DNA of 64,000 nucleotides from Nitrosopumilus sp. (GTDB lineage: Archaea; Thermoproteota; Nitrososphaeria; Nitrososphaerales; Nitrosopumilaceae): positions 1 through 64,000 of the forward strand of contig NZ_JAILWA010000003.1 in NCBI RefSeq assembly GCF_025699255.1, given 5' to 3'. Below are positions 13,409 through 43,729 of the stretch, piece after piece; within the stretch, counting starts at the first letter, position 1, and each line of letters starts with the position of its first letter. Below the pieces are notes generated by a model, which was not told where the DNA came from, did not search any database, and was given only the letters and a program-made list of their open reading frames with translations. Both the position numbers and the translations under genes were made by a program.

Positions 13409-16400
13409 TTAATCATCATCTTTCTTTTTGTCTTTCTTATCATGATGAGACTTTATAATTTCACAATTTTTCAGAGTATCGTCACTGTCTTCATAACATG
13501 TATCCTCATCAGCACCGCCATTCAGGGAATCAATTCCTTTTTCTCCCTTTAGTGTATCAAATCCTGCTTGTCCTCTAAGATCATCATTTCCGTCACCGCC
13601 TTTGATGTGATCATCTCCTGCACCGCCAAGGATAGTATCATTACCATCATCGCCTTTGAGTTCATCATTATCTAAGCCACCTTTGATGGTATCATTACCA
13701 TCATCGCCGTCAATCTTGTCTTTTCCAGAACCTCCAAAGATTTCATCATCGCCGTCACCGCCTTTGATGTGATCATCTCCTCCATTTCCAAGTAAAATAT
13801 CAAAACCATTTTCACCATCAATCTTATCTTTTCCTGCACCGCCAGTGATTTCATCATCGCCGTCACCGCCTTTGATGTGATCATCTCCTGCACCGCCAGT
13901 GATTATATCGTCTTCATTTCCACCATCAAGTTTGTCATTTCCAGAACCTCCAAGGATAGTATCATCGCCGTCACCGCCTTTGATCTCATCATTTCCAGAA
14001 CCTCCGTTGATAGTATCAGTACCTAATCCACCATCAAGTTTGTCATTTCCATCTTTTCCAAATATCTCATCATTTCCAGAACCTCCGTTGATAGTATCAT
14101 TTCCATCTCCTCCATTGAGTTCATCATGTCCATCATTTCCATTAATTCTATCATTTCCTTCATCTCCTTTTATGATATCACCACCACTTCCACCATCAAG
14201 GGTATCATTGCCATCATTGCCACGAATCATATCATCTCCACCTAATCCAAATATCTCATCATTGCCTGCTTGTCCTCTAAGATCATCATTTCCAGAACCT
14301 CCAATAATACAATCATTTCCTGCTTTAGCTTTTACAATATCTCCATAGTCTCCAGCAAGAATAAGATCTGCCTTATCGGTTCCTATCAGTGTATCACTCA
14401 AACCACCTCTATTGTCAATCAAATTGTATTTTCCTTTCAATGCTTTCTTTTCTAGTTCGGCAATAGTCAAGTCGTCACAAAACAACTGATTTTCAAAATC
14501 AATTTGTACTGTTATTGTAATAATGTCTTGATCCACTAAACCTACTGAATCAACTATCTGTAAAGTAATCTCATGTACTCCTTCAGGAAGATTGGAAAGT
14601 GAAAGTGAAGGACCAGTTCCTAATAAACCAGCATAGCCGTTAAACCATTCCAAACTAGAAGATATATCTCCATCTTCAGAATCAGTAGCAGTTCCTACAA
14701 AGTCAATTTGTTCTCCCAAAATGAAGACATCATTATCAAGTGGAGAAATAATTGTGGCAACAGGAGTATCATTTTCTGAGATAACTGTGATATCTACGGT
14801 TGCTTCATTGGATGTTTCTCCTGAATTATCATCAATTGTGTAAGTGTAAGTGTCAGATGTTGTTTCTGAACCATCATGTGTATAATCAATAGTTCCATCT
14901 CCGTTATCTACAAGTGCACCATTGGTTGGTCCACTAGTTATTGTAATTGATGACAAATCAAGACCATCATCTGCATCTGAGTCATTAGATACAATGTTAG
15001 TTGTTGTTGTTCCGCCTTCGTCTACTGAATCTGTATCGTCTTGTGCTTCTGGAATATCGTTAACTGGGATAACTATAACTGTAAATGATTTTTCTGTAGA
15101 ATCAATTCCATCTGAAACAGTTACTGTTATTTCTGCTTCACCATTTGCATTAGCTACTGGGGCATAAGATAATGAACCTGTAGTATCAGGAGAATTGTAA
15201 GTAACGATTGGATCTGGAATCAGTGCAGTATTATCAGAAGTAGCTATAACTGTAAGAGTCTGGACTTCGCCATTACCGGCAGTAATTCCAGATAGATTTA
15301 CTATCTGTATCAGAGCATCTTCAAGAATTGCGGGTGGTTCAATCAGATCATCTAAAGTTGGTGGAGTGTTAATCAAGTAAACTGTGATATCTACGGTTGC
15401 TTCATTGGATGTTTCTCCTGAATTATCATCAATTGTGTAAGTGTAAGTGTCAGATGTTGTTTCTGAACCATCATGTGTATAATCAATAGTTCCATCTCCG
15501 TTATCTACAAGTGCACCATTGGTTGGTCCACTAGTTATTGTAATTGATGACAAATCAAGACCATCATCTGCATCTGAGTCATTAGATACAATGTTAGTTG
15601 TTGTTGTTCCGCCTTCGTCTACTGAATCTGTATCGTCTTGTGCTTCTGGAATATCGTTAACTGGGATAACTGTGATATCTACGGTTGCTTCATTGGATGT
15701 TTCTCCTGAATTATCATCAATTGTGTAAGTGTAAGTGTCAGATGTTGTTTCTGAACCATCATGTGTATAATCAATAGTTCCATCTCCGTTATCTACAAGT
15801 GCACCATTGGTTGGTCCACTAGTTATTGTAATTGATGACAAATCAAGACCATCATCTGCATCTGAGTCATTAGATACAATGTTAGTTGTTGTTGTTCCGC
15901 CTTCGTCTACTGAATCTGTATCATCTCCTGCTATTGGTGCAGAAAGACAAGGATCTTCTATCTCAATATTTCCTTGAAAACCTGCTCCTGCAAAAGATTG
16001 TGTTGCACCACATGCAAGGAACCATTGACTTGCTGGACCAGAATTTGCTACAACTGCAGATGGATTATCAACAACCAATGCTCCATATTGAACAACATTT
16101 CCTCCTTGAGAAACTGCCGCTAAATTAAGAGGCTGTATTAGATCATTGTAAAGTCTTAGTGTTCCACCATTTTCAATGATTAATGTCCCGCCATTAGTAA
16201 CTAATAGTTGTCCAGAAAGATTTAGAGTTCCGCCATCTTTGATTGTTAATGTTCCAGAAGGACCAATAGTTATGTTAGTAGCAAAATGATTATCTGAAAT
16301 TTCCTCGTTTGTAGGACCTGTAATGACTGTATCATCAAGATGATCTGCAAAAGACATCTGAGTAGATGGGAAAAATGCAGAACTGACTAGCAAAAGTATC

Positions 16401-16432
16401 ATTAGAGAAAATCTGACCTTTGCATAATCCAT
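13409..16432 (-). CDS. Giant secreted adhesin-like protein: cadherin-like (tandem-95) repeats plus RTX calcium-binding repeats
   Basis: 1007 residues. The signal peptide is MDYAKVRFSLMILLLVSSAFF.... A beta-helix-like Gly-rich N-terminal part (GGTLNLSGQLLVTNGGT) follows. Next come three near-identical cadherin-like units of the DSVDEGGTTTTNIVSNDSDAD type and one divergent unit, then a PKD/Big-like segment. About 20 RTX nonapeptides (GGxGxDxhx, such as GGSGNDEIFGKDGND) fill residues 695-977. The end is basic-acidic (KKDKKKDDD). RTX repeats fold as Ca2+-bound parallel beta-rolls. Likely a surface or released adhesin. No protease or lipase domain is seen and no type I secretion genes are nearby. 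Confidence 0.85.
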   Translation of the reverse strand: MDYAKVRFSLMILLLVSSAFFPSTQMSFADHLDDTVITGPTNEEISDNHFATNITIGPSGTLTIKDGGTLNLSGQLLVTNGGTLIIENGGTLRLYNDLIQPLNLAAVSQGGNVVQYGALVVDNPSAVVANSGPASQWFLACGATQSFAGAGFQGNIEIEDPCLSAPIAGDDTDSVDEGGTTTTNIVSNDSDADDGLDLSSITITSGPTNGALVDNGDGTIDYTHDGSETTSDTYTYTIDDNSGETSNEATVDITVIPVNDIPEAQDDTDSVDEGGTTTTNIVSNDSDADDGLDLSSITITSGPTNGALVDNGDGTIDYTHDGSETTSDTYTYTIDDNSGETSNEATVDITVYLINTPPTLDDLIEPPAILEDALIQIVNLSGITAGNGEVQTLTVIATSDNTALIPDPIVTYNSPDTTGSLSYAPVANANGEAEITVTVSDGIDSTEKSFTVIVIPVNDIPEAQDDTDSVDEGGTTTTNIVSNDSDADDGLDLSSITITSGPTNGALVDNGDGTIDYTHDGSETTSDTYTYTIDDNSGETSNEATVDITVISENDTPVATIISPLDNDVFILGEQIDFVGTATDSEDGDISSSLEWFNGYAGLLGTGPSLSLSNLPEGVHEITLQIVDSVGLVDQDIITITVQIDFENQLFCDDLTIAELEKKALKGKYNLIDNRGGLSDTLIGTDKADLILAGDYGDIVKAKAGNDCIIGGSGNDDLRGQAGNDEIFGLGGDDMIRGNDGNDTLDGGSGGDIIKGDEGNDRINGNDGHDELNGGDGNDTINGGSGNDEIFGKDGNDKLDGGLGTDTINGGSGNDEIKGGDGDDTILGGSGNDKLDGGNEDDIITGGAGDDHIKGGDGDDEITGGAGKDKIDGENGFDILLGNGGDDHIKGGDGDDEIFGGSGKDKIDGDDGNDTIKGGLDNDELKGDDGNDTILGGAGDDHIKGGDGNDDLRGQAGFDTLKGEKGIDSLNGGADEDTCYEDSDDTLKNCEIIKSHHDKKDKKKDDD
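14784..15926. repeat. Near-identical ~288-bp cadherin-like coding repeats
   Basis: Copies start at about 14784, 15381 and 15669. The last two are in direct tandem with a period of exactly 288 bases (96 residues). The first copy is separated from them by a diverged unit. Over roughly 250 bases the copies look identical to the eye, including synonymous positions, which points to recent duplication or gene conversion. Confidence 0.85.
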
Positions 16433-29671: not shown

Positions 29672-30244
29672 GACCACTTTGATAACCTTGACAACTATTT
29701 TTGGTACGGTGTTTTGATAAAATTATTTTATTCCTGTATACACACCTAGTGATTAGGGATGTTAATTTCTCTGAATGACGTGGAGATTTACAGCCGTAAT
29801 CATTTTCTACTTTGACAGGGAGTATACACCTAGAAAATGTTGAATTTATTGAATTTTGTTAGGTTTGAAATGATTTCGTTTCCTACAATTGATGGTTCGA
29901 AACTTGATTTGTGTGTCAACCTAGATTTTAGATGATTTTCTTGAATTTTCTTAGGAACAATCATGAGTTTGTTTTCTACAATTAAGGTTCAATCATTTCA
30001 TTCTGTTCTTAACATGGTGTATACACTTGGAATTCACTAACTCTATCGTGTTTTGTTAGGTTTGAAATCATTTCTAATTCTACAATTAATGGTTTGAATT
30101 CGATTCTAGGTATGAATTATAGTAATCTTAGTCACCATAACAATATTTTTCACTTGAATATTTTAGATTGATATACATCTGAATAGCATTTTTTGCACTC
30201 TCCAAATAACAAAATCCAACAATCATGAAATGCTGATTCACAAT
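29672..30244. repeat. Iteron-like ~95-base imperfect repeats, gene-free stretch
   Basis: This 573-base gap has no gene. GTATACAC(AC)CTAG-like elements occur at 29736, 29822, 29913 (degenerate) and 30019, about 86-106 bases apart. A second block, TTGTTAGGTTTGAAAT followed by a CTACAATT element, recurs near 29858 and 30055 with a weaker copy between, at about 29949. Together they form about three imperfect units. Repeats beside a replication-type ATPase suggest an origin or partition site. CRISPR is excluded, since neither repeats nor spacers are regular. Confidence 0.55.
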
Positions 30245-31003
30245 TCATGAAGTTTCCTCATTTGGTTTTGGAGTAGACAATGGTTTGTCAATTAATCCAT
30301 TTCCTACCTCTGAACATCTTGTTTGGTATTTACAAAATTTACACAAACCAGATACTTCACCATTTGGAATTACACTATCTATCTTTGCACTCTCAATCTC
30401 TTGGATTCTAGTCTTTATCCAATCAGTCAAGTCCCTTTTTTCTACCTTGTATGTTACAATATCAGACATGTCTGCATAGACAATGTTTAGATTCTCAACA
30501 GGCATGTATTCTGAAAACATTGTATCGTATACCTGAAGTTGTAAAATATGCTCAGGTTTTGGCAAGAATCCTTGCTTTATTTGCCATTTAACAAACTTTG
30601 TTGTTTTAAGATCAATGATTGTTTTTGTTTTCCAATCATACATGTCTAGTCTTCCTGCAACTGTTGCAATTTTTTTGTCCTTTAATGGAACATAGTATTC
30701 CATATCCATCTCTCGCCATTTGTATGCATATGTCATGTTGTGTAAGAAATCCCCTCTGACTGTTGCCCACATTGATTCAAGTGTTGTATCTGCGAGTAAT
30801 TCCTCTTGAGGAATTCCTTGTTGTTTGTACAAAGATTTTCTTTGACAACCAACTAGTTCGGTTACAGAATATCTTGATTTTGGATTAAACTTTGATAGTC
30901 CATTTCGTTTTTCTAAAAAATTAACGATTCCTTTGGGAGTATCAATCTCCTCTGCTAAAGCGATTTGGTCGCCACCCATTTGTTTTGAAATTTGTTGTTT
31001 CAT
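30245..31003 (-). CDS. Cas4-like PD-(D/E)XK nuclease with Fe-S cysteines
   Basis: 252 residues. His88, Asp120 (GRLDMYD), Asp131 and Lys133 (IDLKTTK) and QLQVYD (Gln motif) are the RecB/Cas4 catalytic set. Cys53 together with Cys221, Cys224 and Cys230 (CKFCKYQTRC) gives the four-Cys iron-sulfur arrangement of Cas4. There are no cas1 or cas2 genes or CRISPR array in the window, so I call it Cas4-like, not Cas4. It is divergent from the CARF-like gene, and its promoter carries the shared operator. Confidence 0.8.
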   Translation of the reverse strand: MKQQISKQMGGDQIALAEEIDTPKGIVNFLEKRNGLSKFNPKSRYSVTELVGCQRKSLYKQQGIPQEELLADTTLESMWATVRGDFLHNMTYAYKWREMDMEYYVPLKDKKIATVAGRLDMYDWKTKTIIDLKTTKFVKWQIKQGFLPKPEHILQLQVYDTMFSEYMPVENLNIVYADMSDIVTYKVEKRDLTDWIKTRIQEIESAKIDSVIPNGEVSGLCKFCKYQTRCSEVGNGLIDKPLSTPKPNEETS

Positions 31004-31039
31004 ACATAATATTTGAGGCTACAAGCGATATCCTTTTAA

Positions 31040-31067
31040 TCGTATTATACGAAAATATATCGTATAA
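31040..31067 (-). promoter_or_regulatory. Shared operator copy 1 (Cas4-like and CARF-like promoters)
   Basis: Read on the minus strand the site is TTATACGA, seven bases, TCGTAT, one base, ATACGA. It ends 36 bases before the start codon of the Cas4-like gene, the same position as in copies 2 and 3. On the plus strand it ends one base before the ATG of the CARF-like gene, so binding would also affect that gene. Confidence 0.75.
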
Positions 31068-31068
31068 G

Positions 31069-31845
31069 ATGGTAATCCATATCGCACTAGTAGGCAAAGA
31101 AACTGGACATATCTGGGCAGGATTAAAAGAAATTATTCCTGCAGATAAATTATATCTTTTACACAGTCCTAATACAGATTCGATAAAATTTGCAGACAAG
31201 GCAAGGCAATTAAAAAAAGAAGTTGAAAAAAGATTTTGTGAAACAGTTCTTGTAAAGATTAATGCATTTGAGATGATGAATATTTTAGATGTAATTGACA
31301 AGATTGTCTCAGATGAAATTAAAAAAAGCAATTATGATTTAGATACAATAGACTTTGCAGTAGGAGTTACTGGTGGTACTAACATTATGGCATCAGGTGC
31401 GACACTTGGTGCAATGCTTACAGGTACTAAAGCATACTATGTACAAGATAGTAGAGTTGGACCAAAGCGAAAAAAATATGCTGAATTTCTACCAATACCT
31501 CCAATTAACATAATTCGTTCACTATCAAAATCACATCAAAAGATTCTGCAAACATTGGAGAAAGGATCATTTGAGTGGAAAGGAGAAAAACAATTAGGTG
31601 TAATGAAAAACAAAGACCTAGAAAAGAAACTAAAAATGCGTACATCATCATTAAACTCTGCAATTAAAGAATTAGTAAAGAAGAGATTTGTAGAAACTGA
31701 ACGTGGAGTTCCTGTAATCAAATTCAAAAAAGGTAGTGCAGATCAAAAACCAATACAAGTAGAAGAAAGATTAGAGAATCAAATGTTAGTAAAGATAACT
31801 GATTTGGGAAGGATACAGGCAAAAAAAGCCTCTCTACGTAAATAA
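31069..31845 (+). CDS. CARF-like ligand-sensing HTH regulator
   Basis: 258 residues from ATG 31069. The N-terminal Rossmann-like half (IALVGKETGHIWAGLKEI, then VGVTGGTNIMASGATLGAML at 98-117) has the D/V-x-TGGT-x-MA signature of CARF domains such as Csa3 and the archaeal DUF6293/HFX_2341 group. The C-terminal half is a winged helix (LEKKLKMRTSSLNSAIKELVKKRFV). CARF domains usually bind cyclic oligoadenylates made by type III Cas10, but no such enzyme is in the window. Adjacent to a type I restriction-modification operon and probably its regulator. Confidence 0.72.
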   Translation: MVIHIALVGKETGHIWAGLKEIIPADKLYLLHSPNTDSIKFADKARQLKKEVEKRFCETVLVKINAFEMMNILDVIDKIVSDEIKKSNYDLDTIDFAVGVTGGTNIMASGATLGAMLTGTKAYYVQDSRVGPKRKKYAEFLPIPPINIIRSLSKSHQKILQTLEKGSFEWKGEKQLGVMKNKDLEKKLKMRTSSLNSAIKELVKKRFVETERGVPVIKFKKGSADQKPIQVEERLENQMLVKITDLGRIQAKKASLRK

Positions 31846-31849
31846 TCTA

Positions 31850-31875
31850 TTACGAAATATTTTCGTATAATACGA
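31850..31875 (+). promoter_or_regulatory. Shared operator copy 2 (hsdM promoter)
   Basis: TTACGA, seven bases, TCGTAT, one base, ATACGA. It ends 37 bases before hsdM. The inner TCGTATAATACGA palindrome contains the likely TATA element, so a bound protein would compete with TBP. The leader after it is closely similar to that of copy 3. Confidence 0.75.
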
Positions 31876-31912
31876 AAAAAAGTTCTAGCATTCTTTTCAC
31901 ACAATTATTTCA

Positions 31913-34045
31913 ATGGAGAACAAGAAATATGAAAAACAATCAAAAATTAAGGCTAAAACGTATGACACTCATACCATTGAAAAACCCTATATCACTGACC
32001 TGCAGAAAAATCCTATGAATGTTTCTGAAATTGTATCATTTCTATGGGAAAAGCAAGAATTCCTTCGTAGTCATTACAAGAAAAATAAGTACAAGGATGT
32101 CATTTTACCCCTTGTTGTTTTAACTCGTTTAGATATTGAACTAAAACCTACCAAATCTCAAGTCTTGAAGAAAATTGGAGAGCTCAAAAAGAAAAAGATC
32201 AAAGTAGGTCCTGCAATGGATTCTGATTTAAACAGAATAGCAAAGAAGAGCTTTAACAACAAATCTGAATTTGAGGATTTGAAAGATGTTCTAGGAGATG
32301 ATGCAAAAGACATCAAAACTAATCTTGAGGATTACATTGATGGATTTTCTGATAACATCAAAGACGTTTTTGAGAAATTCAAATTCAAAGATTTAATCAA
32401 AGATCTTGAAAGTAAAAAAATTCTATGGAAGGCAGTAGAGCACTTTGCAAAATACGAAGACATGTTATCAAAATTAGACAACCATGATATGGGAACAGTT
32501 TATGAAGAATTAATCAGAAAAGCAAATGAAGCATCTCATGAGACTGCAGGAGATCACTTTACACCTCGTGATGTAATTAAAACACTAGTTGCAATAACTT
32601 TTTCACCAGATATAAAATCAATTCTCAAAGATCCTGATACAATTCGTACAATTTACGACCCAGCTTCTGGAACTGGAGGAATGCTATCTGAATCTGAAAA
32701 ATTCCTTGCAGACCATGTAAATAAAAATATCAAACTTGGTTTGGTTGGACAAGACATCAATGATGAAGCATATGCTGTTTGTAAATCAGATATGATGATC
32801 AGAGGAGTAGACCCACAACACATTCAATTTGGGAATAGTTTAACTGATGAGGATAAATTCCCAGGCTCAAAATTTGATTATATTTTATCTAATCCACCAT
32901 ATGGTAGAGATTGGAAAGATTTTGCAGAAGATATTGAAAAAGAAAGAAAGAAACCAGATAGTAGATATTCTGCAGGACTGCCACGAAGCAGTGACAGTGC
33001 AATGCTGTTTTTACAACACATTGTATCTAAAATGTATGATAAAGATTCAGAGAAAACAAGTAGAGTTGCAATTGTCTTTAATGGTTCTCCATTATTTACT
33101 GGTGATGCTGGAAGTGGAGAGAGTGACATTAGAAAGTGGTTACTTGAGGATTTAGATTATCTTGAGACAATTATTGCTCTTCCAAAAGATTTGTTTTACA
33201 ATACTGGAATCACCACATACATCTGGATTTTAACTAATCACAAAAGCAAAGCAAGAAAAGGCAAAGTTCAGCTAATTAATGCAGTTGATTTGTGTACTAG
33301 ACTACGTAGAGGTCTGTCAAGTAAAAGAAATGAGATTGAAGACTCCCATATTGAGCAGATAAAATCTGAATATGATGCATTTCCTAAAGAATCAAAAATT
33401 TCTAAAATCTTTGATACTAACGAATTTGGCTATGCTCAAATTACAGTTAATCGACCTTTGAAAAGAAATTATTCATTTGCACCTGAAAGAATAGAACTAG
33501 TAAAAGCACAGTCAACATTTATCAAATTAGCAGAATCAAAAAAGAAAGGATCTGCTAAAGAAAAAGAAGAGGTGGAAGGTAGAAAAAAACAAGAGGAAAT
33601 AATTTCTGTATTAAAATCTGCAAACAAATCCAAAGTTTACAAAGATTGTAATGATATGGAAAAAGCATTAGAGGAATTATTTGATAAATCTAAAGTTGAT
33701 ATATCTAAAGGAATGCTCAAGGCAATACAAAACGCACTATCTGAACACGATGATACAGCAACTCCATGTGTTAAAGGCAAAAAACCCATCTATGATTCAG
33801 ACCTTAGAGATACTGAAAAAGTTCCACTAACTGAAGATATTGATGAATACTTCAAGCGTGAAGTATTGCCATTTGTAGATGATGCAGTAATTGATGATGA
33901 TACTAGAACTAAAATTGGATATGAAATTCCAGTGACTAGAGTATTTTATGAATACAAACCTCTAAGATCTTTAGAAGAAATTGATTCAGAGATAAAAAAT
34001 CTCCAAAAAGAAATCTCAAAAGACTTGGAGGATTTGATGGATTGA
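31913..34045 (+). CDS. hsdM: Type I restriction-modification DNA methyltransferase subunit
   Basis: 710 residues. DPASGTGGML (249-258) is the SAM-binding motif and NPPYG (327-331) the adenine-methylation motif IV. HFTPRDV precedes them as usual. The N-terminal helical domain starts after a basic segment. The C-terminal 200 residues are longer than in most HsdM and helical. The product methylates adenine within the HsdS-determined target. Its stop overlaps the TTG start of hsdS. Confidence 0.95.
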   Translation: MENKKYEKQSKIKAKTYDTHTIEKPYITDLQKNPMNVSEIVSFLWEKQEFLRSHYKKNKYKDVILPLVVLTRLDIELKPTKSQVLKKIGELKKKKIKVGPAMDSDLNRIAKKSFNNKSEFEDLKDVLGDDAKDIKTNLEDYIDGFSDNIKDVFEKFKFKDLIKDLESKKILWKAVEHFAKYEDMLSKLDNHDMGTVYEELIRKANEASHETAGDHFTPRDVIKTLVAITFSPDIKSILKDPDTIRTIYDPASGTGGMLSESEKFLADHVNKNIKLGLVGQDINDEAYAVCKSDMMIRGVDPQHIQFGNSLTDEDKFPGSKFDYILSNPPYGRDWKDFAEDIEKERKKPDSRYSAGLPRSSDSAMLFLQHIVSKMYDKDSEKTSRVAIVFNGSPLFTGDAGSGESDIRKWLLEDLDYLETIIALPKDLFYNTGITTYIWILTNHKSKARKGKVQLINAVDLCTRLRRGLSSKRNEIEDSHIEQIKSEYDAFPKESKISKIFDTNEFGYAQITVNRPLKRNYSFAPERIELVKAQSTFIKLAESKKKGSAKEKEEVEGRKKQEEIISVLKSANKSKVYKDCNDMEKALEELFDKSKVDISKGMLKAIQNALSEHDDTATPCVKGKKPIYDSDLRDTEKVPLTEDIDEYFKREVLPFVDDAVIDDDTRTKIGYEIPVTRVFYEYKPLRSLEEIDSEIKNLQKEISKDLEDLMD

Positions 34046-35406
34046 AACAATATTCTCAAATGAAAGATTCTAGAATCAAAGGACTAGGAAAAATTCCATC
34101 TAGTTGGACTGAAATACCACTTCAATATCTGGCATCTTCTGAATCAAATGCATTTACCGATGGTCCCTTTGGTTCTAATCTAAAATCAAGTGAATATGTT
34201 GATTCAGGAGTACTGTTAATACAATTAAACAATATTGGTGATGGTAAATTTTATCTTAAAAATCCCACCTACATTACAGAAGAAAAGTTTCAATCATTAA
34301 GTAAACATAATGCAATTCCAGGAGATGTCGTTGTTTCAAAAATGGCTGATCCTATAGCCCGTGCATGCCTTGTTCCTGATATTGAATCAAAATATTTCAT
34401 AGTTTCAGATTGTATAAGATTACGAACAAAAGATAATGTTAACAATCAATTTCTTACTTATGCAATAAATAGTCCCTATTTTCGTCAAAGAGCAGCTTCA
34501 TTTGGGGGAGGTTCTACTAGACAAAGAATTCAATTAACACAACTAAAAAAATTATCCATCATATTACCAGAGAAAGAACAAAAACAAATTATAAATTATT
34601 TAGATAAAAAAACAAAGAAAATAGATGATGAAATATTAAAAAATCAAAAACTAATTGAATTATTAAAAGAACAAAAACAATCTGTAATTAATCATGCAGT
34701 AACTAAAGGACTAGATGACACAATTACAATGAAAGATTCTGGAATAGATTGGGTTGGAAAAATACCAAAACATTGGAATGTTAAATCTATTCGGTATATT
34801 CTCATTCCTGGAAAATTAGGAATTAAAATTGGACCTTTTGGAAGTTCATTAAAACTTAATTCTATGAGTAAATCAGGATTCAAAGTATATGGTCAAGAAA
34901 ATGTTATAAAACGAGATTTTGATCTAGGTGAACGATTTATTGATAAAAAAAAATTTGATGAGATGATTGTGCATGAAATTGTTCCTAATGATATAATTGT
35001 AACAATGATGGGTACAACTGGATTATCACAAGTAGTTCCTAAGAAAATTCAGAAAGGAATAATGGATTCTCACTTAGTAAGAATTAGATCAAATAATCAA
35101 ATTTGTGATACAAATTTTTTATCTCTTTTGATAAACTCTTCTGATTATGTTAAATTTGAGCTAAAGTTAGAGAGTAAGGGTTCTATCATGGAAGGATTGA
35201 ATTCTTCAATTCTAAAATCTGTAAAAATTTTATTACCTGAATCAATTAAAGAACAAAAACAAATCACAGATCATTTAGATAAAAAAACAAAAGCAGTTGA
35301 TTCCCTAATCCTCAAAATAGAATTACAAATCAAACAACTTCAAGAATTCAGAGAATCTTTAATCTCATCAGCAGTTACGGGCAAAATTCAGGTGACAGAG
35401 GCATGA
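34042..35406 (+). CDS. hsdS: Type I specificity subunit 1
   Basis: 454 residues from a TTG that overlaps the end of hsdM. Two target-recognition domains are present, each followed by a conserved helical region (LPEKEQKQIINYLDKKTKKID; LPESIKEQKQITDHLDKKTKAVD). MKDSGIDWVGKIPKHW marks the start of the second half. It ends QEFRESLISSAVTG, the same ending as the second specificity gene. Recognition sequence unknown. Confidence 0.93.
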   Translation: MKQYSQMKDSRIKGLGKIPSSWTEIPLQYLASSESNAFTDGPFGSNLKSSEYVDSGVLLIQLNNIGDGKFYLKNPTYITEEKFQSLSKHNAIPGDVVVSKMADPIARACLVPDIESKYFIVSDCIRLRTKDNVNNQFLTYAINSPYFRQRAASFGGGSTRQRIQLTQLKKLSIILPEKEQKQIINYLDKKTKKIDDEILKNQKLIELLKEQKQSVINHAVTKGLDDTITMKDSGIDWVGKIPKHWNVKSIRYILIPGKLGIKIGPFGSSLKLNSMSKSGFKVYGQENVIKRDFDLGERFIDKKKFDEMIVHEIVPNDIIVTMMGTTGLSQVVPKKIQKGIMDSHLVRIRSNNQICDTNFLSLLINSSDYVKFELKLESKGSIMEGLNSSILKSVKILLPESIKEQKQITDHLDKKTKAVDSLILKIELQIKQLQEFRESLISSAVTGKIQVTEA

Positions 35407-35420
35407 ATATAACAAAATTA

Positions 35421-35437
35421 TTTTGTATTGTACAAAA
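35421..35437. promoter_or_regulatory. Palindrome TTTTGTA-TTG-TACAAAA before hsdR
   Basis: A 7+7 inverted repeat in the 73-base gap between hsdS and hsdR, 43 bases before the hsdR start. It differs from the three ATACGA operators, so hsdR may have its own promoter and its own control, separate from the methyltransferase. Confidence 0.4.
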
Positions 35438-35479
35438 AATAACTATTCTAAACAACAGTTTAATCCATAACGAGGTAAA

Positions 35480-38400
35480 ATGGTAGAAAAAAACTTTGAA
35501 GATGATATTGTAGAAAGTCTGGAAAAATCAGGTTATGAAGTTAGACTATCTGGTAATTATGACAGCAAAACAGGATTAGACAAAGATGTTCTATTTCGAT
35601 TCCTAAATAATACACAACCTGATGAGATGGCAGAAATTCTACATGATTTTGGAGAAGACACCAAAGTAAAAATCATAGATACTACAGTCACTCAAATTAA
35701 TCAAAGAGGGTTAATTGATGTAATTAGAAATGGAATTAAAATAAATGATAAAAAATTAGTATTTTCTTTTAGAAAACCACAATCTCAAAAAAATAAAAAA
35801 GCATACGAGTTGTATCAAAAAAACATTTTTACAATAATCAGACAACTACGATTCAGTCAAATTACAACTGAATCAGTTGATCTAGCAATATTTCTAAATG
35901 GATTTCCAATTGCTACAGCTGAACTCAAAGATCAATTCTCAAAACAAACAATGGAAGTTGCAGAAAAACAATACATGAAAAGAAATACTGATGAGAGAAT
36001 ATTTCAATTCAAAAATGGAGCAATTGTTCATTTTGCAATAGATTATGACAATATCTCCATGACAACAAAGCTAAAAAACCAAGATACTGTATTTCGTCCA
36101 TTTAACAAGCCAAACATTGAAGATAAAAAATCATATCCAACATCATATCTCTGGAAAGAAATCTGGGATAAAGATAACCTTCTAAACATAATTCAGAACT
36201 TTGTACATCTTCAAATAGTATATGATCCTGATGATCCAAGTAAAATAAAAGATGAATTTTTAATTTTTCCAAGATACCATCAATGGGATGCAGTAAACAA
36301 AATTATTCTAGACACAAAAGAGAAAGGCTCTGGAAATAGATACCTTGTAGAGCACTCTACTGGAAGTGGTAAGAGTTTCTCTATTGCTTGGCTTGCATAT
36401 GCATTACACTCAGTACGAGACTATGATGGCAATTCAATCTTTGATGGAGTAGTTGTAATTTCAGATAGAAAAATAATTGTGGATCAACTTCGTGATGAAA
36501 TCAAACAGTTTGAAGATACTGATGGACTAGTACCTGAAATCAAAGATTCAAACGAATTAGGCACAGAATTGGAGCATTCAAGCAAGATTCTAGTTAGTAC
36601 ACAACAGAAATTCTTTGATGTCAAAGACAGAATTGAGAAGCTAGGTGGGAAACACTACGCAGTAATTGTTGATGAAGCTCAAAGCTCTCAAGGTGGAGAT
36701 GCATCACAAAAAGTAATGGATGCATTAGTTGACTTGGATGAGTTTGGCAAAAAAATTGCTACTGCAAAGCAAAACATTAGTTATTTTGCATTCAGTGGAA
36801 CCCCTAAAGACAAAACCTTGGCAATATTTGGAACAGAATTATCAGATGGTACAAAGGTTCCTTTCCATAAATATACAATGAAACAAGCTATTGATGAAGG
36901 ATACATTCTAGATGTACTCAAAAACTATACTACAATTAAAAGAATTTTTGATGTAATCCAAAAGGGTAGTGAAAAACAAGTTGACACTAAAAAAGCATTT
37001 AGGCAAATAATGCAGTTAGTCAATGAGGATCCAAAAAATATCTCAAAAAAATCTTATTTCATTATTGAGCATTTTAAAAATTACACAATGAATCAGATTG
37101 GTGAAAAAGCAAAAGCAATGTTGGTAACTGAAAAGCGAAAGCAGGCAGTACAATACAAACTAGCACTAGATGATTATATTGCACATCTAGGATTACCAAT
37201 TAAAACACTAGTTGCATTCTCAGGAACTGTGACTATAGATGGAGTTGATTACACTGAAAATTCACTTAACAATCCAAAAAGAGAAAAAGAGTTTGATATT
37301 GCTAAACAGTTTGGAAAAGAAGAATACAGAATTTTGATTGTAGCTGACAAGTTCCGAGTAGGATTTAATCAACCAAACTTGCATACAATGTATGTTGATA
37401 AAACACTACGTAACGTAAATGCAGTACAAACACTATCTAGACTAAACAGAACCAAAAAAGGAAAAGATGCTGTATGTGTAGTTGATTTTGTAAACTCTGC
37501 TGAAGAAATCAAGGAAGCATATTCAAAATATTATGTTGGAGTAATTCTATCTGACGAAATTGATTCAAAATTACTATACAAATTATACCAACAAGTGATG
37601 GACTATGGAGTAATTTTAGATGATGATATAGAATCCTACTGGGATCTGATTCATCCATCATCTGGAATTCCTGCAATAAATGAAGAACTAGTTGGGGCCA
37701 CAGCAGATGCCGTTCATAGATTCCTAGAATTAGATGAGGAGACCAGAGGTAAATTCAAGCAATTTTTAGTAAAATTTGTTGAAAATTACGCCTATCTGGT
37801 ACAGGTAAATGACTATGAGACTGAAAATCTAGAAAAACTGCATAGATTTGGCAGAAAACTTCTCACAAGACTACCTGATCCAGGAAAAATCATCCCACTA
37901 CCTCTCAAAGATGATGTTGCAGTAAGGTATATCGATCTTAAAGAGACATTTCATGGTTCCATTCCCCTAGAAGACAAGCCAGGAATTTTAGGAAAACCAA
38001 TAACTGTTGGGACTCAAAAAAGACCAAACATTATTGGTTCATTATCTGAAGTAATTTTAAAAATAAATGAAAAATATTCAAACACTGTACGAACTGTTGC
38101 AGAAACTGCATGCATTGAGAAATTTGTAAGGACTTTGGTATTAGACAATCACATAATTTCTGAATTTAAAAAATCAGGAAACACTAGACAAGCCATTTTA
38201 CAGTTTGGAAATTATCGTTCATCATTTGATATTAAACTCGATGAGATGGAATCATACAATCCTGAATTGTTTGTATCAATCAAAAACGATCTTGATTGGA
38301 AAGAACAGATAGTACAAGAATCTTCAAAAATAATTGATGAACAGATCAAAGCAAGGGGTGAAATTGAACTCCCAAGCATTACAAATGATATTGCAGAAAA

Positions 38401-39007
38401 CAAAGACTCTTACAGAAAAGCATTAGAATCTTGTAAAGACTATTTGTGGTTTGAGGAAAAACATCTTGCAGCTGATAAAGTAGAATTTTTAGAAGAAATT
38501 ATGAAGGGGTGTATAGTTACTGAGATTAGAATTTTAGGCTCTGCAATTTTTAATGATAAGATAAATGAAGAATTTTATACTAAAATCAAAGAATTACGAG
38601 ACAAACTAGATGCATTAAAAATTAAACTAGAAGTAAAAATTGCAATTACAAAAAGTTTACACAAAAAATTTCATGACCGCTATGCTATTGGATCAAATAA
38701 TCTATGGACTGTACCACCAATAAGTGCAGTATTAGAGGGAAGTTCTGCTACTTTTAATCAACATGTTGCAGGAAGTTCTACCTATGAGCAGGATTCAAAG
38801 GCATATGATGAGTGGTGGAATGATTCAGATGCAATTGATGTTTTCACAGATTGGGAAAAAATAAAACCAGTTGCAGAATCATTTTCAAAATTCGGGGGAA
38901 AACCACAAAAATACAATTGTGTTGAATGTGGAAAAGAGTTTACACGTAATTTCAAACTATCAAATCCCTTATGTGATGAGCATTTCAAACCTGGAGGAAG
39001 AAAATGA
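35480..39007 (+). CDS. hsdR: Type I restriction endonuclease/translocase subunit
   Basis: 1175 residues with a GAGGT ribosome site before the ATG. The N-terminal nuclease has Asp134 and Glu148-x-Lys150 (AELKDQF). The motor has Walker A STGSGKS (292-299 region), VDEAQSS near 397 and later helicase motifs (FSGTP, SRLNRT). The last 40 residues hold a CVECGKEF...CDEHF zinc-finger-like tail that is not part of the usual HsdR. It cuts unmodified DNA after ATP-driven translocation. The stop overlaps the start of the second hsdS. Confidence 0.94.
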   Translation: MVEKNFEDDIVESLEKSGYEVRLSGNYDSKTGLDKDVLFRFLNNTQPDEMAEILHDFGEDTKVKIIDTTVTQINQRGLIDVIRNGIKINDKKLVFSFRKPQSQKNKKAYELYQKNIFTIIRQLRFSQITTESVDLAIFLNGFPIATAELKDQFSKQTMEVAEKQYMKRNTDERIFQFKNGAIVHFAIDYDNISMTTKLKNQDTVFRPFNKPNIEDKKSYPTSYLWKEIWDKDNLLNIIQNFVHLQIVYDPDDPSKIKDEFLIFPRYHQWDAVNKIILDTKEKGSGNRYLVEHSTGSGKSFSIAWLAYALHSVRDYDGNSIFDGVVVISDRKIIVDQLRDEIKQFEDTDGLVPEIKDSNELGTELEHSSKILVSTQQKFFDVKDRIEKLGGKHYAVIVDEAQSSQGGDASQKVMDALVDLDEFGKKIATAKQNISYFAFSGTPKDKTLAIFGTELSDGTKVPFHKYTMKQAIDEGYILDVLKNYTTIKRIFDVIQKGSEKQVDTKKAFRQIMQLVNEDPKNISKKSYFIIEHFKNYTMNQIGEKAKAMLVTEKRKQAVQYKLALDDYIAHLGLPIKTLVAFSGTVTIDGVDYTENSLNNPKREKEFDIAKQFGKEEYRILIVADKFRVGFNQPNLHTMYVDKTLRNVNAVQTLSRLNRTKKGKDAVCVVDFVNSAEEIKEAYSKYYVGVILSDEIDSKLLYKLYQQVMDYGVILDDDIESYWDLIHPSSGIPAINEELVGATADAVHRFLELDEETRGKFKQFLVKFVENYAYLVQVNDYETENLEKLHRFGRKLLTRLPDPGKIIPLPLKDDVAVRYIDLKETFHGSIPLEDKPGILGKPITVGTQKRPNIIGSLSEVILKINEKYSNTVRTVAETACIEKFVRTLVLDNHIISEFKKSGNTRQAILQFGNYRSSFDIKLDEMESYNPELFVSIKNDLDWKEQIVQESSKIIDEQIKARGEIELPSITNDIAENKDSYRKALESCKDYLWFEEKHLAADKVEFLEEIMKGCIVTEIRILGSAIFNDKINEEFYTKIKELRDKLDALKIKLEVKIAITKSLHKKFHDRYAIGSNNLWTVPPISAVLEGSSATFNQHVAGSSTYEQDSKAYDEWWNDSDAIDVFTDWEKIKPVAESFSKFGGKPQKYNCVECGKEFTRNFKLSNPLCDEHFKPGGRK

Positions 39008-40335
39008 CTCTCCAAAAATATCCAAAAATGAAAGATTCTGGAGTGGAATGGATAGGAGAAATTCCTGAATCCTGGAATGTAGCACCATTGAAGTTTATAG
39101 GAAAATTAAATTCGGGAGGAACTCCCTCTACAGGTAATTCTGAATACTGGGATAACGGAACAATCCCATGGATTTCTTCAGGTGAAGTAAATAACAATAG
39201 TATTACAAAATGTATAAAGAAAATAACAAAGTTGGGATTAATTGAAAGTTCAGCAAAATTATTTCCCAAAGAGAGTGTTTTAATTGCAATTACTGGAGAA
39301 GGGGCTACTAGAGGACGAACTTCTATATTGAAAATTGAAGCCACTACAAATCAGTCTGTAGTAGGAATTGTATCCAATCAAAAAAAACATTATAGTCATT
39401 TTATTTGGTATTATCTTCAAAGTCAATATTCACATTTAAGAAATAGTAGCCATGGTAGTGTACAATCAGGTCTAAATTTAGATATTTTAAGGAATTATCC
39501 TATTTCTTTACAAAAAATATTGGAACAAAAACAAATCGTTAATTTTCTTGATGGAAAAACAAAAATAATTGATCAGGAAATCTCTAAAAGTAAAAAATTA
39601 ATTGAATTAATCAAAGAAAAAAGACAATCTCTTATCAACCATGTGGTTACTAAAGGGCTTGATGATTCAGTTCCGATGAAAGATTCTGGAATAGATTGGG
39701 TTGGAGATATTCCAGAAGATTGGAAAGTATCAAAGATCAAATTTGTATCTGATGTAACTGGTAGAATAGGGTATAGAGGTTACACAATAAATGATATTGT
39801 CTCTGAAGGAGAAGGTGCAATTACACTTAGTCCATCAAATATCATTGATGATAAATTCAACATGAATAAAAAAACCTACTTGACTTGGAAGAAATATGAA
39901 GAATCTCCTGAAATTCAGATTTTTGAGAATAATATTTTACTAGTTAAGACTGGTTCTACTATCGGAAAGGTGTGTATGGTACCAGATTACAGAGAAAAAA
40001 TGACCATCAACCCCCAATTGGTTGTATTAAAACCATTTAAAATTACTCCAAAATTTCTATTATTTTTTATGACTTCAAATAAATACAAAGATCAAATTTA
40101 TAGTTCAATAGTTGGCGGATCAACCCCTACTATATCACAACAAGAAATTTTGAATCATTATATCCTATTTCCACCTAGAACTGAACAAAATCATATTATT
40201 TCTTACATAGATAAACAAACTATTCAGATGGATAAATTAATCTCCAAAGTAGAATCACAAATCTCAAAATTACAAGAATTCAGAGAATCTTTAATCTTAT
40301 CGGCTGTAACTGGAAAAATTTGTGTGACTAACTAA
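39004..40335 (+). CDS. hsdS: Type I specificity subunit 2
   Basis: 443 residues starting in the stop of hsdR (ATGA). It has two target-recognition domains and the repeated phrases MKDSG(V/I)(E/D)W(I/V)G(E/D)IPE at residues near 9 and 223. It shares short exact DNA stretches with the first hsdS (for example the 30 bases from 34729 and from 39676) at the joints between domains. The recognition domains themselves differ. Having two complete hsdS genes for one hsdM gives two alternative specificities. Confidence 0.92.
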   Translation: MTLQKYPKMKDSGVEWIGEIPESWNVAPLKFIGKLNSGGTPSTGNSEYWDNGTIPWISSGEVNNNSITKCIKKITKLGLIESSAKLFPKESVLIAITGEGATRGRTSILKIEATTNQSVVGIVSNQKKHYSHFIWYYLQSQYSHLRNSSHGSVQSGLNLDILRNYPISLQKILEQKQIVNFLDGKTKIIDQEISKSKKLIELIKEKRQSLINHVVTKGLDDSVPMKDSGIDWVGDIPEDWKVSKIKFVSDVTGRIGYRGYTINDIVSEGEGAITLSPSNIIDDKFNMNKKTYLTWKKYEESPEIQIFENNILLVKTGSTIGKVCMVPDYREKMTINPQLVVLKPFKITPKFLLFFMTSNKYKDQIYSSIVGGSTPTISQQEILNHYILFPPRTEQNHIISYIDKQTIQMDKLISKVESQISKLQEFRESLILSAVTGKICVTN

Positions 40336-40360
40336 ATCTAGGTATAAAATCATAGATACT

Positions 40361-40386
40361 ATACGAAATAATCTCGTATAATACGA
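40361..40386 (+). promoter_or_regulatory. Shared operator copy 3 (40423 operon promoter)
   Basis: ATACGA, seven bases, TCGTAT, one base, ATACGA, the most perfect copy. It ends 36 bases before the ATG at 40423. The centres of the two overlapping palindromes (40370 and 40380) are 10 bases apart, one helical turn. Confidence 0.78.
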
Positions 40387-40422
40387 AAAAAACCTCAATG
40401 ATTCTTATCACACAATTAATTC

Positions 40423-40866
40423 ATGAAACAAACAGTTTCGACACAAATGGATGACGGCCATATCGTCAATGAAGGAAAAAGTCTTTCAAGTTATGATGAT
40501 TTTGTATTTCATGACTTGGAGCAAAGTTTTGTCTTTCAAAACCAATCCCTAGACGCACATTACAACCATGTAATGTCTAGTCTTGGGAATTCCTACAAGG
40601 GAGTAAACAAGTATATTTATGGAAACACAATAGGTGCAATCAAAACTATTGTTAACTGTAAAAAAACACATGCTAGACGTACTGAGAATTGTAAAGAAGC
40701 AATTGCATTCTTACATCAAGACATGCAATTGGCCACCAATTCAATACAGATGATAATGCTACTCTTTGGAGTAAAACTATCAACAAGACAAATCCTCAGA
40801 GACTCTGAACAAATACTCTCAGAAAGAGAACCTAACTGGATCTCAAATTTAGGAGGTAGATACTAA
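40423..40866 (+). CDS. Unknown protein under the shared operator
   Basis: 147 residues, helical, starting MKQTVSTQMDDGHIV. This beginning resembles that of the Cas4-like protein (MKQQISKQMGGDQIA), and the DNA there matches at 34 of the first 43 bases by hand count. The rest has no recognised motif; two Cys occur near 78 and 90. First gene of an operon that includes a coiled-coil protein, mini zinc ribbons and a HEPN-like protein. Function unknown. Confidence 0.62.
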   Translation: MKQTVSTQMDDGHIVNEGKSLSSYDDFVFHDLEQSFVFQNQSLDAHYNHVMSSLGNSYKGVNKYIYGNTIGAIKTIVNCKKTHARRTENCKEAIAFLHQDMQLATNSIQMIMLLFGVKLSTRQILRDSEQILSEREPNWISNLGGRY

Positions 40867-40867
40867 G

Positions 40868-41077
40868 ATGCATGATCAATTAAGAAAAACATTACCAAAG
40901 CGTCTTGATATTGCAAATTTAGAGCATGAAATCAATAGAATGGAGGCAGACTTGGATTACCATAGAAATAAAGCCAAAATATTTGAAGAGACATTGTTAG
41001 AACAACAATACATTCTATCAAAACTGCAGAAAAAATACTATCATAGTGATGAAGAGGGTTTAGATTGTTCAGAGTAA
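40868..41077 (+). CDS. Small coiled-coil protein
   Basis: 69 residues, mostly one long helix (LEHEINRMEADLDYHRNKAKIFEETLLEQQYILSK has heptad spacing). The ATG follows the previous stop by one base. No other motif. Possibly a partner or regulator for the neighbouring proteins. Confidence 0.55.
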   Translation: MHDQLRKTLPKRLDIANLEHEINRMEADLDYHRNKAKIFEETLLEQQYILSKLQKKYYHSDEEGLDCSE

Positions 41078-41085
41078 ATGACTGG

Positions 41086-41181
41086 ATGACAGTACATCAC
41101 TGCAAATCATGTAATCAAAAAGCATTGGTAAGATCAAATCATAAACTATGCAACAGTTGTAGGAGAAAACAAAATGAGTAA
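41086..41181 (+). CDS. Mini zinc-ribbon protein 1 (31 residues)
   Basis: MTVHHCKSCNQ...LCNSCRRKQNE has two CxxC knuckles about 13 residues apart, enough for one zinc ribbon. It overlaps the next frame by 8 bases. It is too short for a homology claim, but the spacing, overlap and repeated CxxC theme in three consecutive frames favour real genes. Confidence 0.5.
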   Translation: MTVHHCKSCNQKALVRSNHKLCNSCRRKQNE

Positions 41182-41311
41182 AGTATGTCCTAAATGTAAC
41201 AGTGAAGATACTAGTATCTTTTTGATTGCACCAAATGTATTTCAGATTAAACAAGAATCAAAACCAATCTTTTGTTGGTATTGTGAAAATTGCAGGAATG
41301 AGTGGCAATGA
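41174..41311 (+). CDS. Mini zinc-ribbon protein 2 (45 residues)
   Basis: MSKVCPKCNSEDTSIFLI, then FCWYCENCRNEWQ. CPKC and CENC form a classical zinc ribbon like those of transcription-associated proteins. It overlaps mini protein 1 by 8 bases and mini protein 3 by 4 (ATGA). Confidence 0.55.
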   Translation: MSKVCPKCNSEDTSIFLIAPNVFQIKQESKPIFCWYCENCRNEWQ

Positions 41312-41460
41312 GATGTAAAATCTGTGAAATTCCTCACAAGAACACGTCTATGCATGGAATTTGGGCTGAATTTAGGGTTTGTAGAGGATGTTCCTTCATT
41401 TTGGATGTATTTTCATGGAATGGAGCAAATCTGAGTACGTATTGGGAGGGTGAATTTTGA
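41308..41460 (+). CDS. Mini zinc-ribbon protein 3 (50 residues)
   Basis: MRCKICEIPHKNTSMHGIW and VCRGCSFILDVFSWNG. CKIC and CRGC are the two knuckles. It starts in the stop of mini protein 2 and its end overlaps the GTG of the HEPN-like gene by 11 bases. Four consecutive overlapping frames argue for a real operon. Confidence 0.55.
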   Translation: MRCKICEIPHKNTSMHGIWAEFRVCRGCSFILDVFSWNGANLSTYWEGEF

Positions 41461-42280
41461 AGTGTTTAATTACGATTTGTGGAATACAAATGATGAAAGT
41501 ATGAGTAAAAGATTTGCAAGGTTTCAACCACATAAAATTGCTAAATTAAAGGAAGACGTTGATCCGACATATTTTGATACACAATTAAATGAACTCTATA
41601 AACAAATTGATGAATTTGAAAATATTGAATCTAAAGAAGTAATTCAGTCTTTAAAAAATTTCATTGTAATAAATCTAGTAACAGTTATGGAAGATACAAT
41701 AAAACGTGAATTGAAATTTGAAATTGATGTAGAACAAATTGAATTGAAGAATATTTTTGATCAAAATGAACTTCGAATTAGGTTAACTGATCTTGATATT
41801 ATAAAAACAAATGAAATTACAAAGGGAATGATTGTAGCTTCAAATTTTAATTTTCAAAATCTAAATGAATTTGATAGGATTTTTTCGAAAGCGTATAAAG
41901 TTGATTTTCTTGAAACATTTTTAGAATTATTAAAATTACCTCTTAATATTGAGAGAGATGAATCTCAAAGATATTATGAGCAGCGAATGGGCATATTGAA
42001 AAGGTGGGAAAAATTAAAAGAGATTCCATATGAACGACATAGAATAATTCATAACTTAAATCAGAATATAGAATTAGATAAAGAAGAATTACATGATTTA
42101 GTAGATGTAGTACATAATTTTCTTGCTAAATTTTTATTTTTTACTTATGTTTTAAACATGATTGATAATGTTAATTTTGCACCTAAAGATGTGAAAAAAC
42201 ATTTAGAAGAAGAATTTGGAAATAAATTTGAAGTTTTAGAAGAAATCGTAAATAGACAAAGAAGAAAATTTAGGAATTAA
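41450..42280 (+). CDS. HEPN-like protein, probable RNase candidate
   Basis: 276 residues from a GTG in the end of the mini-ribbon gene. The chain is almost all helical and charged. Arg196-His-Arg-Ile-Ile-His201 fits the R-x4-6-H signature of HEPN RNases, followed by ELHDLVDVVHNFL, another His-rich helix. The family is often found in defence and toxin-antitoxin systems. The assignment rests mainly on that motif and on context, so alternatives remain open. Confidence 0.5.
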   Translation: MNFEVFNYDLWNTNDESMSKRFARFQPHKIAKLKEDVDPTYFDTQLNELYKQIDEFENIESKEVIQSLKNFIVINLVTVMEDTIKRELKFEIDVEQIELKNIFDQNELRIRLTDLDIIKTNEITKGMIVASNFNFQNLNEFDRIFSKAYKVDFLETFLELLKLPLNIERDESQRYYEQRMGILKRWEKLKEIPYERHRIIHNLNQNIELDKEELHDLVDVVHNFLAKFLFFTYVLNMIDNVNFAPKDVKKHLEEEFGNKFEVLEEIVNRQRRKFRN

Positions 42281-42590
42281 GTCTGGTTTTTGTGCGTAAT
42301 TTCTTTAATTCTTCTTCTAGTTTTTTGATATAATGTATTGCAACAACATAATTTGCAAATGTAGCACCAAACATGTTCATAAATGTATATGATGAATTCA
42401 AACTGTCTTTAGGAAATAATGGATCGTTTTCCTGAGCCAGTCTACGTGAATCATCAATGTCTTTACTCCATTTTTTAAAATCTTGCTTTAATTGTAATAC
42501 AGATTTTTTATTTGGTTTTTCATCTAACCATTTTTTAAGACGTGCTTCACGTTGACGAAGAATTTGAATTATCTCTTCTCTAGTAATCAT
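42270..42590 (-). CDS. Hypothetical helical protein next to integrase
   Basis: 106 residues, mainly charged helices (EEIIQILRQREARLKKWL, KKLEEELKKLRTKT). Its start overlaps the end of the recombinase gene by 4 bases, so the two form one unit. It is convergent with the HEPN-like gene and overlaps its 3' end by 11 bases. Function unknown; perhaps a recombinase accessory factor. Confidence 0.55.
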   Translation of the reverse strand: MITREEIIQILRQREARLKKWLDEKPNKKSVLQLKQDFKKWSKDIDDSRRLAQENDPLFPKDSLNSSYTFMNMFGATFANYVVAIHYIKKLEEELKKLRTKTRLNS

Positions 42591-43729
42591 TTCAAAAACT
42601 CTGGAACTTGAAGACTGTTATCTCTTGATTGTAGTTTAAACTCGTTGAACTTTGCTTCTAATTCTGCATATTTTATGGATAATGTTTTGAGATTCTTATC
42701 TACTTGTTTGAAGTCAGAGATTGTAAGATGTGGTTCTGCTTGCAAGTACATCTCTTTTCTTTTTTCATCAGATAGTTGATAGTAAGTATCCATGTAGAAA
42801 CCATGACCCATTAGTTCTTCTGCAAAATCTCTTCCACAGACATTTCCTACTGTAGTACGAAAATATTTTCTAAATGCATGAAAATGTACTACCTTTCTAC
42901 CATTCTTGTTATTTGAGTTGATTTCAGAATTTTTGTCAAGGTGATATCTGAGGCTATTGTGTAGTAAACTTTCTGCATGTAGATGAGGAGGTTGTTTAGG
43001 ATTTGATTTACGTTTTAGATTTTTTATCTTTGATATTCTCCCAAAAATTTTGATGTTTTTTAGTTGAACATTATCGCTAGTTTCATCCCATCCAAAATAT
43101 CGTTTTAGATATTCTTTTAGTGAATTTGTGGCCTCAGTAGTAAGGTATGTTTGTCGTTCAGTTCTAGTTTTTGTAGTTTCTGCTCTTAGTGAAATAGTTG
43201 TAGGAGTAGTTGAAAAATCAATATCACCTAATTCCAATTGAACTAGTTCACCTAGTCTCATTCCACTAGATGAAAGAACTAGAACAATTGTTTGTAACCT
43301 AGGTGAGAAACTCCGTTGTAATTTTACAATTAATTCTCTAGTTACTGGTTCTTCTCTTTGTCGAATTATTTTAGGGATACGAACCATTTGCTTGTAATCC
43401 TCAGAATTGATTTTTAATCCCAAGTTTCTAAGGTAGCCTTTAACTGCAGGCATTCTACTTGTAATTGATTTTGCAGTGTATCCTTTAGAATCTAAAAAGA
43501 CAACAAACTCATTTAGAATTTTGTAAATATCAAGTGATTCACCGTTTACTTTTTCAATTAACTCAAATTCATCAATACAGTATTTTTCTGACAAAAATTC
43601 TCTAAATCCAGTTTTCTTACTGTTTGTAATTGCTAAACGATACGAGCTTACAGTACTATGACTGTGAGATATGATAAACAAGGATGCCAAGTAATCATCT
43701 AATGATTTATCTAAAACTTTAAGAGACAT
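42587..43729 (-). CDS. Tyrosine recombinase/integrase
   Basis: 380 residues. SSGMRLGELVQLELGDID gives catalytic Arg158. HAFR at 284-287 supplies the H-x-x-R pair and GHGFYMDTYYQ gives His309 and the nucleophile Tyr316 or Tyr317. A SAM-like core-binding domain occupies residues 1-120. It likely integrates or excises the surrounding element. A coiled coil follows the catalytic domain (residues 335-365). Confidence 0.9.
   Translation of the reverse strand: MSLKVLDKSLDDYLASLFIISHSHSTVSSYRLAITNSKKTGFREFLSEKYCIDEFELIEKVNGESLDIYKILNEFVVFLDSKGYTAKSITSRMPAVKGYLRNLGLKINSEDYKQMVRIPKIIRQREEPVTRELIVKLQRSFSPRLQTIVLVLSSSGMRLGELVQLELGDIDFSTTPTTISLRAETTKTRTERQTYLTTEATNSLKEYLKRYFGWDETSDNVQLKNIKIFGRISKIKNLKRKSNPKQPPHLHAESLLHNSLRYHLDKNSEINSNNKNGRKVVHFHAFRKYFRTTVGNVCGRDFAEELMGHGFYMDTYYQLSDEKRKEMYLQAEPHLTISDFKQVDKNLKTLSIKYAELEAKFNEFKLQSRDNSLQVPEFLK

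Follow-up and report, generated by a model that had tools for sequence, protein, structure and literature searches.

What does a CARF-domain transcription regulator govern in an archaeon in which no CRISPR array is found, and to what signal would it respond? This question is raised by a locus at positions 30245-42280 of a 64,000-nt stretch of DNA (hereafter the window) from the 1.65-Mb genome of a Nitrosopumilus sp. CARF regulators are usually tied to CRISPR immunity, and CARF domains sense cyclic oligonucleotides in type III CRISPR systems. Here, the CARF gene is flanked by a divergent gene for a Cas4-like nuclease and by the genes hsdM-hsdS1 and hsdR-hsdS2 of a type I restriction-modification (RM) system, followed by a run from orf147 to a gene for a HEPN-like protein. 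All named genes were confirmed at their coordinates, the CARF, Cas4-like and hsd genes with strong matches to Pfam and PADLOC profiles, and with them the arrangement given in a preliminary description of the sequence, which had placed a CARF-like gene between the Cas4-like and hsd genes. We consider it probable that the CARF protein, which carries a winged helix-turn-helix (wHTH) domain, is a transcription factor governing an exchangeable anti-mobile-element cassette via a 26-bp operator, modulated by a ligand; a defence function of the cassette is presumed.

Fold and pocket of the regulator

The product of 31069-31845 (plus strand, 258 aa) comprises a CARF and a MarR-like wHTH domain according to sequence profiles (PADLOC CARF3, 5.6e-32; Pfam HFX_2341_N, 1.5e-12) and to an AlphaFold2 model computed from an alignment of ten sequences (predicted local distance difference test, pLDDT, 86). 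Foldseek ranked Csa3 first for this model, followed by Can2, ring nucleases and Csm6. In structure alignments by VIA, residues 1-144 matched CARF domains that bind cyclic tetra-adenylate (cA4) with a Z score of about 16, and residues 145-258 matched MarR with a Z score of about 12, placing the winged HTH at the C-terminus. The CARF fold proposed from the sequence was thus matched by Csa3 and by cA4-bound CARF structures. The pocket motif T101-G-G-T104 is invariant in ten relatives, and some ligand is therefore expected, though probably not one from type III CRISPR. The protein would bind DNA, probably as a dimer, and it may be controlled by a ligand. Its single match in the host genome was itself.

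Operator and promoter geometry

The full operator, found by comparing relatives, has 26 bp and three half-sites, TACRAA-N5-TTYGTA-N3-TACRAA. At two or fewer mismatches to this unit, four island promoters are marked in the genome: that common to cas4 and the CARF gene by O1 (31039-31064, minus strand, two mismatches), hsdM by O2 (31851-31876, plus strand, no mismatch), hsdR by O3 (35411-35436, plus strand, one mismatch) and orf147 by O4 (40362-40387, plus strand, one mismatch). Apart from an overlapping reverse reading at 31862, one site was found outside the island, at C4:18183. As this is the only further genome site in the fixed geometry, a chance origin of the operators is excluded. The shorter sequence TTCGTATAATACGAA, at one or no mismatch, occurs at 31039, 31862 and 40373 only in the whole genome, so that the claim of one operator at three promoters was borne out; O3, which has TTTGTA half-sites and had been missed by the earlier reading, adds a fourth. 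The operators common to the hsd promoters also support the proposal that the sensor is tied to the RM locus.

The distance from operator to start codon falls into two classes. In eight of eight loci (the window and seven others, from distinct lineages), the operator lies 3-4 bp from the start codon of the CARF gene (4 bp for O1), and in 18 promoters of hsdM, cas4, orf147 and similar genes the distance is 35-36 bp (O1 to cas4, 35 bp; O2 to hsdM, 36 bp; O4 to orf147, 35 bp). Exceptions are hsdR in the window (43 bp, with a Shine-Dalgarno-like GAGGT visible before the gene), the 733-aa gene of locus L024 (54 bp) and the genes divergent from CARF in L026, L051 and L028 (96-102 bp). Within 149 upstream regions, TATA-like hexamers are concentrated between -40 and -26. 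At the CARF gene, this zone thus falls under the operator, and at the targets it begins directly downstream of the operator. An operator just upstream of the expected TATA box is in the typical position for an archaeal activator. Because of these positions, autorepression of the CARF gene appears likely, and activation of the targets would be more likely than their repression.

Relatives and exchangeable cargo

Of 250 genomes surveyed in the family, 17 have CARF relatives. The nearest of them adjoin hsdM in G047 (locus L026), G178 (L027/L051, Ca. Nitrosotalea devanaterra) and G012 (L028), and the relative in G024 (L024) adjoins a type I-like split system. In turn, four of the 250 genomes have the HsdM subtype (E ≤ 1e-60), each time beside this CARF gene, in agreement with the proposed co-occurrence of homologues with hsd genes. 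One further HsdM homologue, in G406 of the phylum sample, has neither CARF gene nor operator and is a useful negative control. In L031/L052, CARF and Cas4 genes precede the gene for a 2072-aa DruE-like helicase (PADLOC, 3e-147), in L025/L047 they are followed by AAA and VWA genes, and in a Halorubrum locus CARF is followed by HsdM. Homologues of orf147 (44-48% identical) have an operator upstream in each of L024, L026, L028 and L031, and the operator architecture is conserved in relatives of other genera. Across loci, regulator, operator and Cas4 (orthologues 44-82% identical) are constant and the cargo differs.

Near more distant CARF relatives (E 1e-19 to 1e-8), from other families of the phylum, tblastn gave no match to the hsd or cas4 genes of the window in the loci fetched, and viral contigs scanned with the CARF and HEPN alignments and with Cas4 yielded no relatives. 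A proposed equivalence of the 733/285-aa pair in L024 with the haloarchaeal 704/268-aa pair found no support as regards the second protein.

Several further features of these loci were recorded. Locus L046, on a contig labelled as a gammaproteobacterial metagenome-assembled genome, contains a CARF gene, the operator and a Cas4 gene whose product is 70% identical to the archaeal one; it is probably mis-binned. DUF2130 genes recur near the loci (L028:18000-19253, L024:3971-5191, L066:6248-7582), including the CARF-less HsdM locus of G406. In three hsd loci, a gene divergent from CARF encodes a member of a family of 250-388 aa (L026:12682-13797, L027:6184-6936, L028:14382-15548); the two of these three that were scanned had no Pfam match, and the family is absent from the window.

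Search for a ligand source

Cas10 was searched for in the host and in nine CARF-bearing relatives. Cmr2 gave no match in any of them; Csm1 had none in the host and none above the cut-off in the relatives. Weak Csm1 matches in relatives covered profile positions 3-164 only, lay below the cut-off and in two cases contained stops, and were rejected as Cas10. A repeat scan that detected a synthetic control array found no CRISPR array in the host genome; the repeats it returned resemble coding or low-complexity sequence and were rejected as arrays. Cas1 had no intact match in the host, the one partial match being a 158-aa open reading frame (ORF) at L067:12522-12998 (G000 contig 1), possibly a remnant. 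No CD-NTase was detected in the host. SMODS matches in eight of ten genomes fell into frames of about 450 aa, all but one below the cut-off, which we take to be the CCA-adding enzyme. The absence of Cas10 and CRISPR noted for the window thus extends to the genome, and the idea that the regulator senses a cyclic oligonucleotide is weakened. As the host search detected neither Cas10 nor a CD-NTase, no CRISPR array and no complete Cas1, a type III ligand for the regulator is unlikely.

Weighing of explanations

In the favoured explanation, the CARF-wHTH protein, probably a dimer, would bind the 26-bp operator with its three half-sites. Binding at its own promoter, where the operator lies next to the start codon and across the TATA zone, should silence the CARF gene; at cas4, hsdM and orf147, binding would lead to ligand-modulated activation or, less likely, to repression. 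The output so controlled would be restriction-modification, the Cas4-like nuclease and the orf147-to-HEPN run, and the CARF pocket would sense an infection-derived nucleotide signal from a source other than Cas10. This explanation is favoured because the operators mark four island promoters and only one place elsewhere, because the CARF and MarR structural matches with Csa3 on top are accompanied by an invariant pocket motif, and because operator geometry and spacing recur in seven other loci and TATA-like hexamers are concentrated in the -40 to -26 zone. It is further favoured by the constant association of the HsdM subtype with this CARF gene, the CARF-less homologue in G406 being without operator, and by the change of cargo while regulator, operator and Cas4 stay. 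Several points weigh against it. The search of the host yielded no intact source of a cyclic oligonucleotide. A 62-bp stretch of the O2 promoter is 85% identical to that of O4, and operator conservation could therefore stem from co-inherited promoter blocks. The CARF family is rare, and hsd genes occur in only a minority of its loci. Finally, the position of the operator is the sole pointer to the sign of regulation at the targets, where activation is suggested.

That same position bears on the somewhat unlikely alternative of a pure repressor, which would silence all its promoters including its own until relieved by an infection signal or a phage factor, following the logic of RptR. The TATA zone lies under the operator at the CARF gene and next to it at the targets, and RptR, which represses type I RM islands, has three repeated sites at its own promoter, with hsdM rising after infection (PMC12255303); at the targets, however, the operators are held at a near-constant distance upstream of the TATA zone and not over it, unlike at the CARF gene. 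If the regulator merely set methylase before restriction on entry of the island into a new host, with a vestigial or constitutive CARF domain, the autorepression geometry of its promoter, the adjoining integrase and the separate, diverged operator 5' of hsdR in the window would be accounted for. We regard this timing function as improbable, since the pocket motif is invariant, the module also controls cargo other than a methylase-endonuclease pair, as at the DruE locus, and hsdR in L027 and L028 abuts or overlaps the upstream hsdS without an operator of its own.

As to the signal, a nuclease of the regulon itself, for example the HEPN-like protein, might produce cyclic-ended RNA or another nucleotide during infection, to be sensed by the CARF regulator, which would then raise restriction, the Cas4-like nuclease and the RNase itself. 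HEPN RNases leave 2',3'-cyclic ends (PMC3710099), RtcR-like CARF proteins are proposed to sense cyclic ends (PMC11090510), the HEPN-like motif is intact and no other ligand source was found; such a loop is nevertheless quite unlikely, as several CARF loci have no HEPN-like gene and relatives of this gene also occur in genomes without this CARF. If true, it would constitute a CRISPR-free, positive-feedback immune response, portable between cargo systems such as type I RM and Druantia-like ones. Control by Cas10-made cyclic oligoadenylate, as part of a type III CRISPR pathway, is very improbable: the fold does match cA4-binding CARF proteins, but the searches for Cmr2, Csm1, a CRISPR array and a complete Cas1 described above largely refute such a pathway for this host.

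Genes of the cassette and neighbouring features

The Cas4-like PD-(D/E)XK nuclease is encoded at 30245-31003 on the minus strand, divergent from the CARF gene (PADLOC Cas4, 3.1e-14; Pfam PDDEXK_1, 4.1e-8), and four Cys, as expected of an Fe-S nuclease, and DLK and QxxxY motifs were read by eye in its sequence. As searches of the host found no intact Cas1 and no CRISPR array, it is of the solo-Cas4 type and would have no role in CRISPR adaptation. To its left, about 570 bp (29672-30244) are without a listed ORF and contain two copies of a repeat of about 90 nt (29812, 30009; 74% alike).

All subunits of a type I RM system are present with the expected domains, and methylation and cleavage would be its activities. 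On the plus strand follow HsdM, an N6-adenine methyltransferase (31913-34045; N6_Mtase, 1.8e-61; PADLOC MTase_I, 4.6e-241), the specificity subunit HsdS1 (34042-35406; Methylase_S, 5.6e-19; PADLOC Specificity_I, 1.7e-98), the restriction subunit HsdR (35480-39007; SWI2_SNF2, 1e-24; HSDR_N, 1.3e-10; PADLOC REase_I, 7e-37) and a second specificity subunit, HsdS2 (39004-40335; Methylase_S, 4.1e-31; PADLOC Specificity_I, 1.5e-110). The two hsdS genes have in common a 206-nt stretch at 79% (34576-34781 and 39523-39728) and shorter repeats, recombination between which could swap target-recognition domains or remove hsdR.

The third run, also on the plus strand, begins with orf147, a conserved protein of unknown function (40423-40866), and a small 69-aa ORF (40868-41077); ORFs of similar size follow orf147 in relatives (cluster of four). 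The Cas4-like protein (start 31003) and orf147 (start 40423) begin with a similar peptide of the MKQQ-S-QM type, in relatives as well, which may reflect either a shared promoter-plus-start block or a functional N-terminus.

The last gene of the run (41450-42280) encodes the HEPN-like protein, which had no Pfam match above the cut-off and no PDB sequence match, and whose structure model (pLDDT 41) was too poor for use. HEPN RNases are recognized by Rx4-6H with N, D or H after the R, and an upstream acidic Ex3[KR] (PMC3710099). The protein has R196-x4-H201 and E81-x3-K85, in accordance with this definition; in the family alignment, R-[NHD]-x3-H is present in every relative row covering the motif, and the upstream E is conserved. 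The earlier assignment of this R-x4-H protein as HEPN-like therefore stands as regards the motif, where its support lies, and the protein is a candidate RNase.

A tyrosine integrase (42587-43729, minus strand; Phage_integrase, 1.1e-12), relatives of which adjoin the L028 and L031 loci, lies at the right edge of the island. Elsewhere in the window, a 1007-aa ORF (13409-16432, minus strand) contains repeated GDGDD-type segments resembling RTX calcium-binding repeats.

Known systems and implications

The closest counterparts are Csa3a and Csa3b of the Sulfolobales, which have the same domain architecture and give the best structural match; Csa3b activates some promoters and represses others (PMC7480081). 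Csa3 proper is encoded with CRISPR-Cas genes, which it targets in type III hosts, whereas in the genome of the window regulator the searches found no array, no Cas10 and a partial Cas1 only, and the targets of this regulator would be the type I RM genes, the Cas4-like gene and the HEPN-like run. MM_0565 of Methanosarcina mazei is likewise a CARF-wHTH protein of an archaeon, forms a dimer and has a function outside cas operons, namely induction of the cas1 gene of a casposon (PMC7465815); unlike the window regulator, it is encoded at a type I-B CRISPR locus and has no RM regulon.

RtcR-like CARF-AAA-HTH regulators linked to RM systems were proposed in 2014 by Makarova (PMC4012209), and in CoCoNuT superoperons RtcR-like CARF regulators occur together with type I RM and Druantia (PMC11090510). 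Both resemble the window in placing a CARF regulator with type I RM or Druantia and HEPN RNases. The window protein differs in having no AAA+ sigma54-activator domain and the locus in having no McrBC-like CoCoNuT core, and archaeal promoters with several dispersed operators take the place of one long operon. RptR, too, controls a type I RM island through a conserved repeated site (PMC12255303), yet it is a small single-domain four-helix protein of Gammaproteobacteria without a sensor, as opposed to the two-domain CARF-wHTH architecture modelled here. Cryptic integrated elements of thaumarchaea have HsdM/S/R genes near XerC-like integrases; the passages considered here describe no CARF regulator for them and no operator common to their genes (PMC6563490). 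In view of the RtcR-like and CoCoNuT precedents, the preliminary statement that such a regulon is not known from the literature was too strong. CARF control of RM has precedent in RtcR-like regulators, CoCoNuT and Csa3, and its archaeal, CRISPR-free form appears new: the literature searched contained no account of type I RM under an archaeal CARF-wHTH regulator in the absence of CRISPR, although the 2020 CARF classification (PMC7498327) may mention it.

The locus links a CARF sensor to classical restriction in an archaeon without detected CRISPR, Cas10 or CD-NTase, and the ligand of such CARF proteins thereby becomes a testable question. With the operator, its fixed spacing and the target genes this well defined, binding and in vitro transcription could be tested directly. 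A single regulator is paired with cargo that can be exchanged, be it a type I-like split system, a DruE-like helicase or type I RM, which points to a portable control module that would serve the defence islands of ammonia-oxidising archaea and their relatives.

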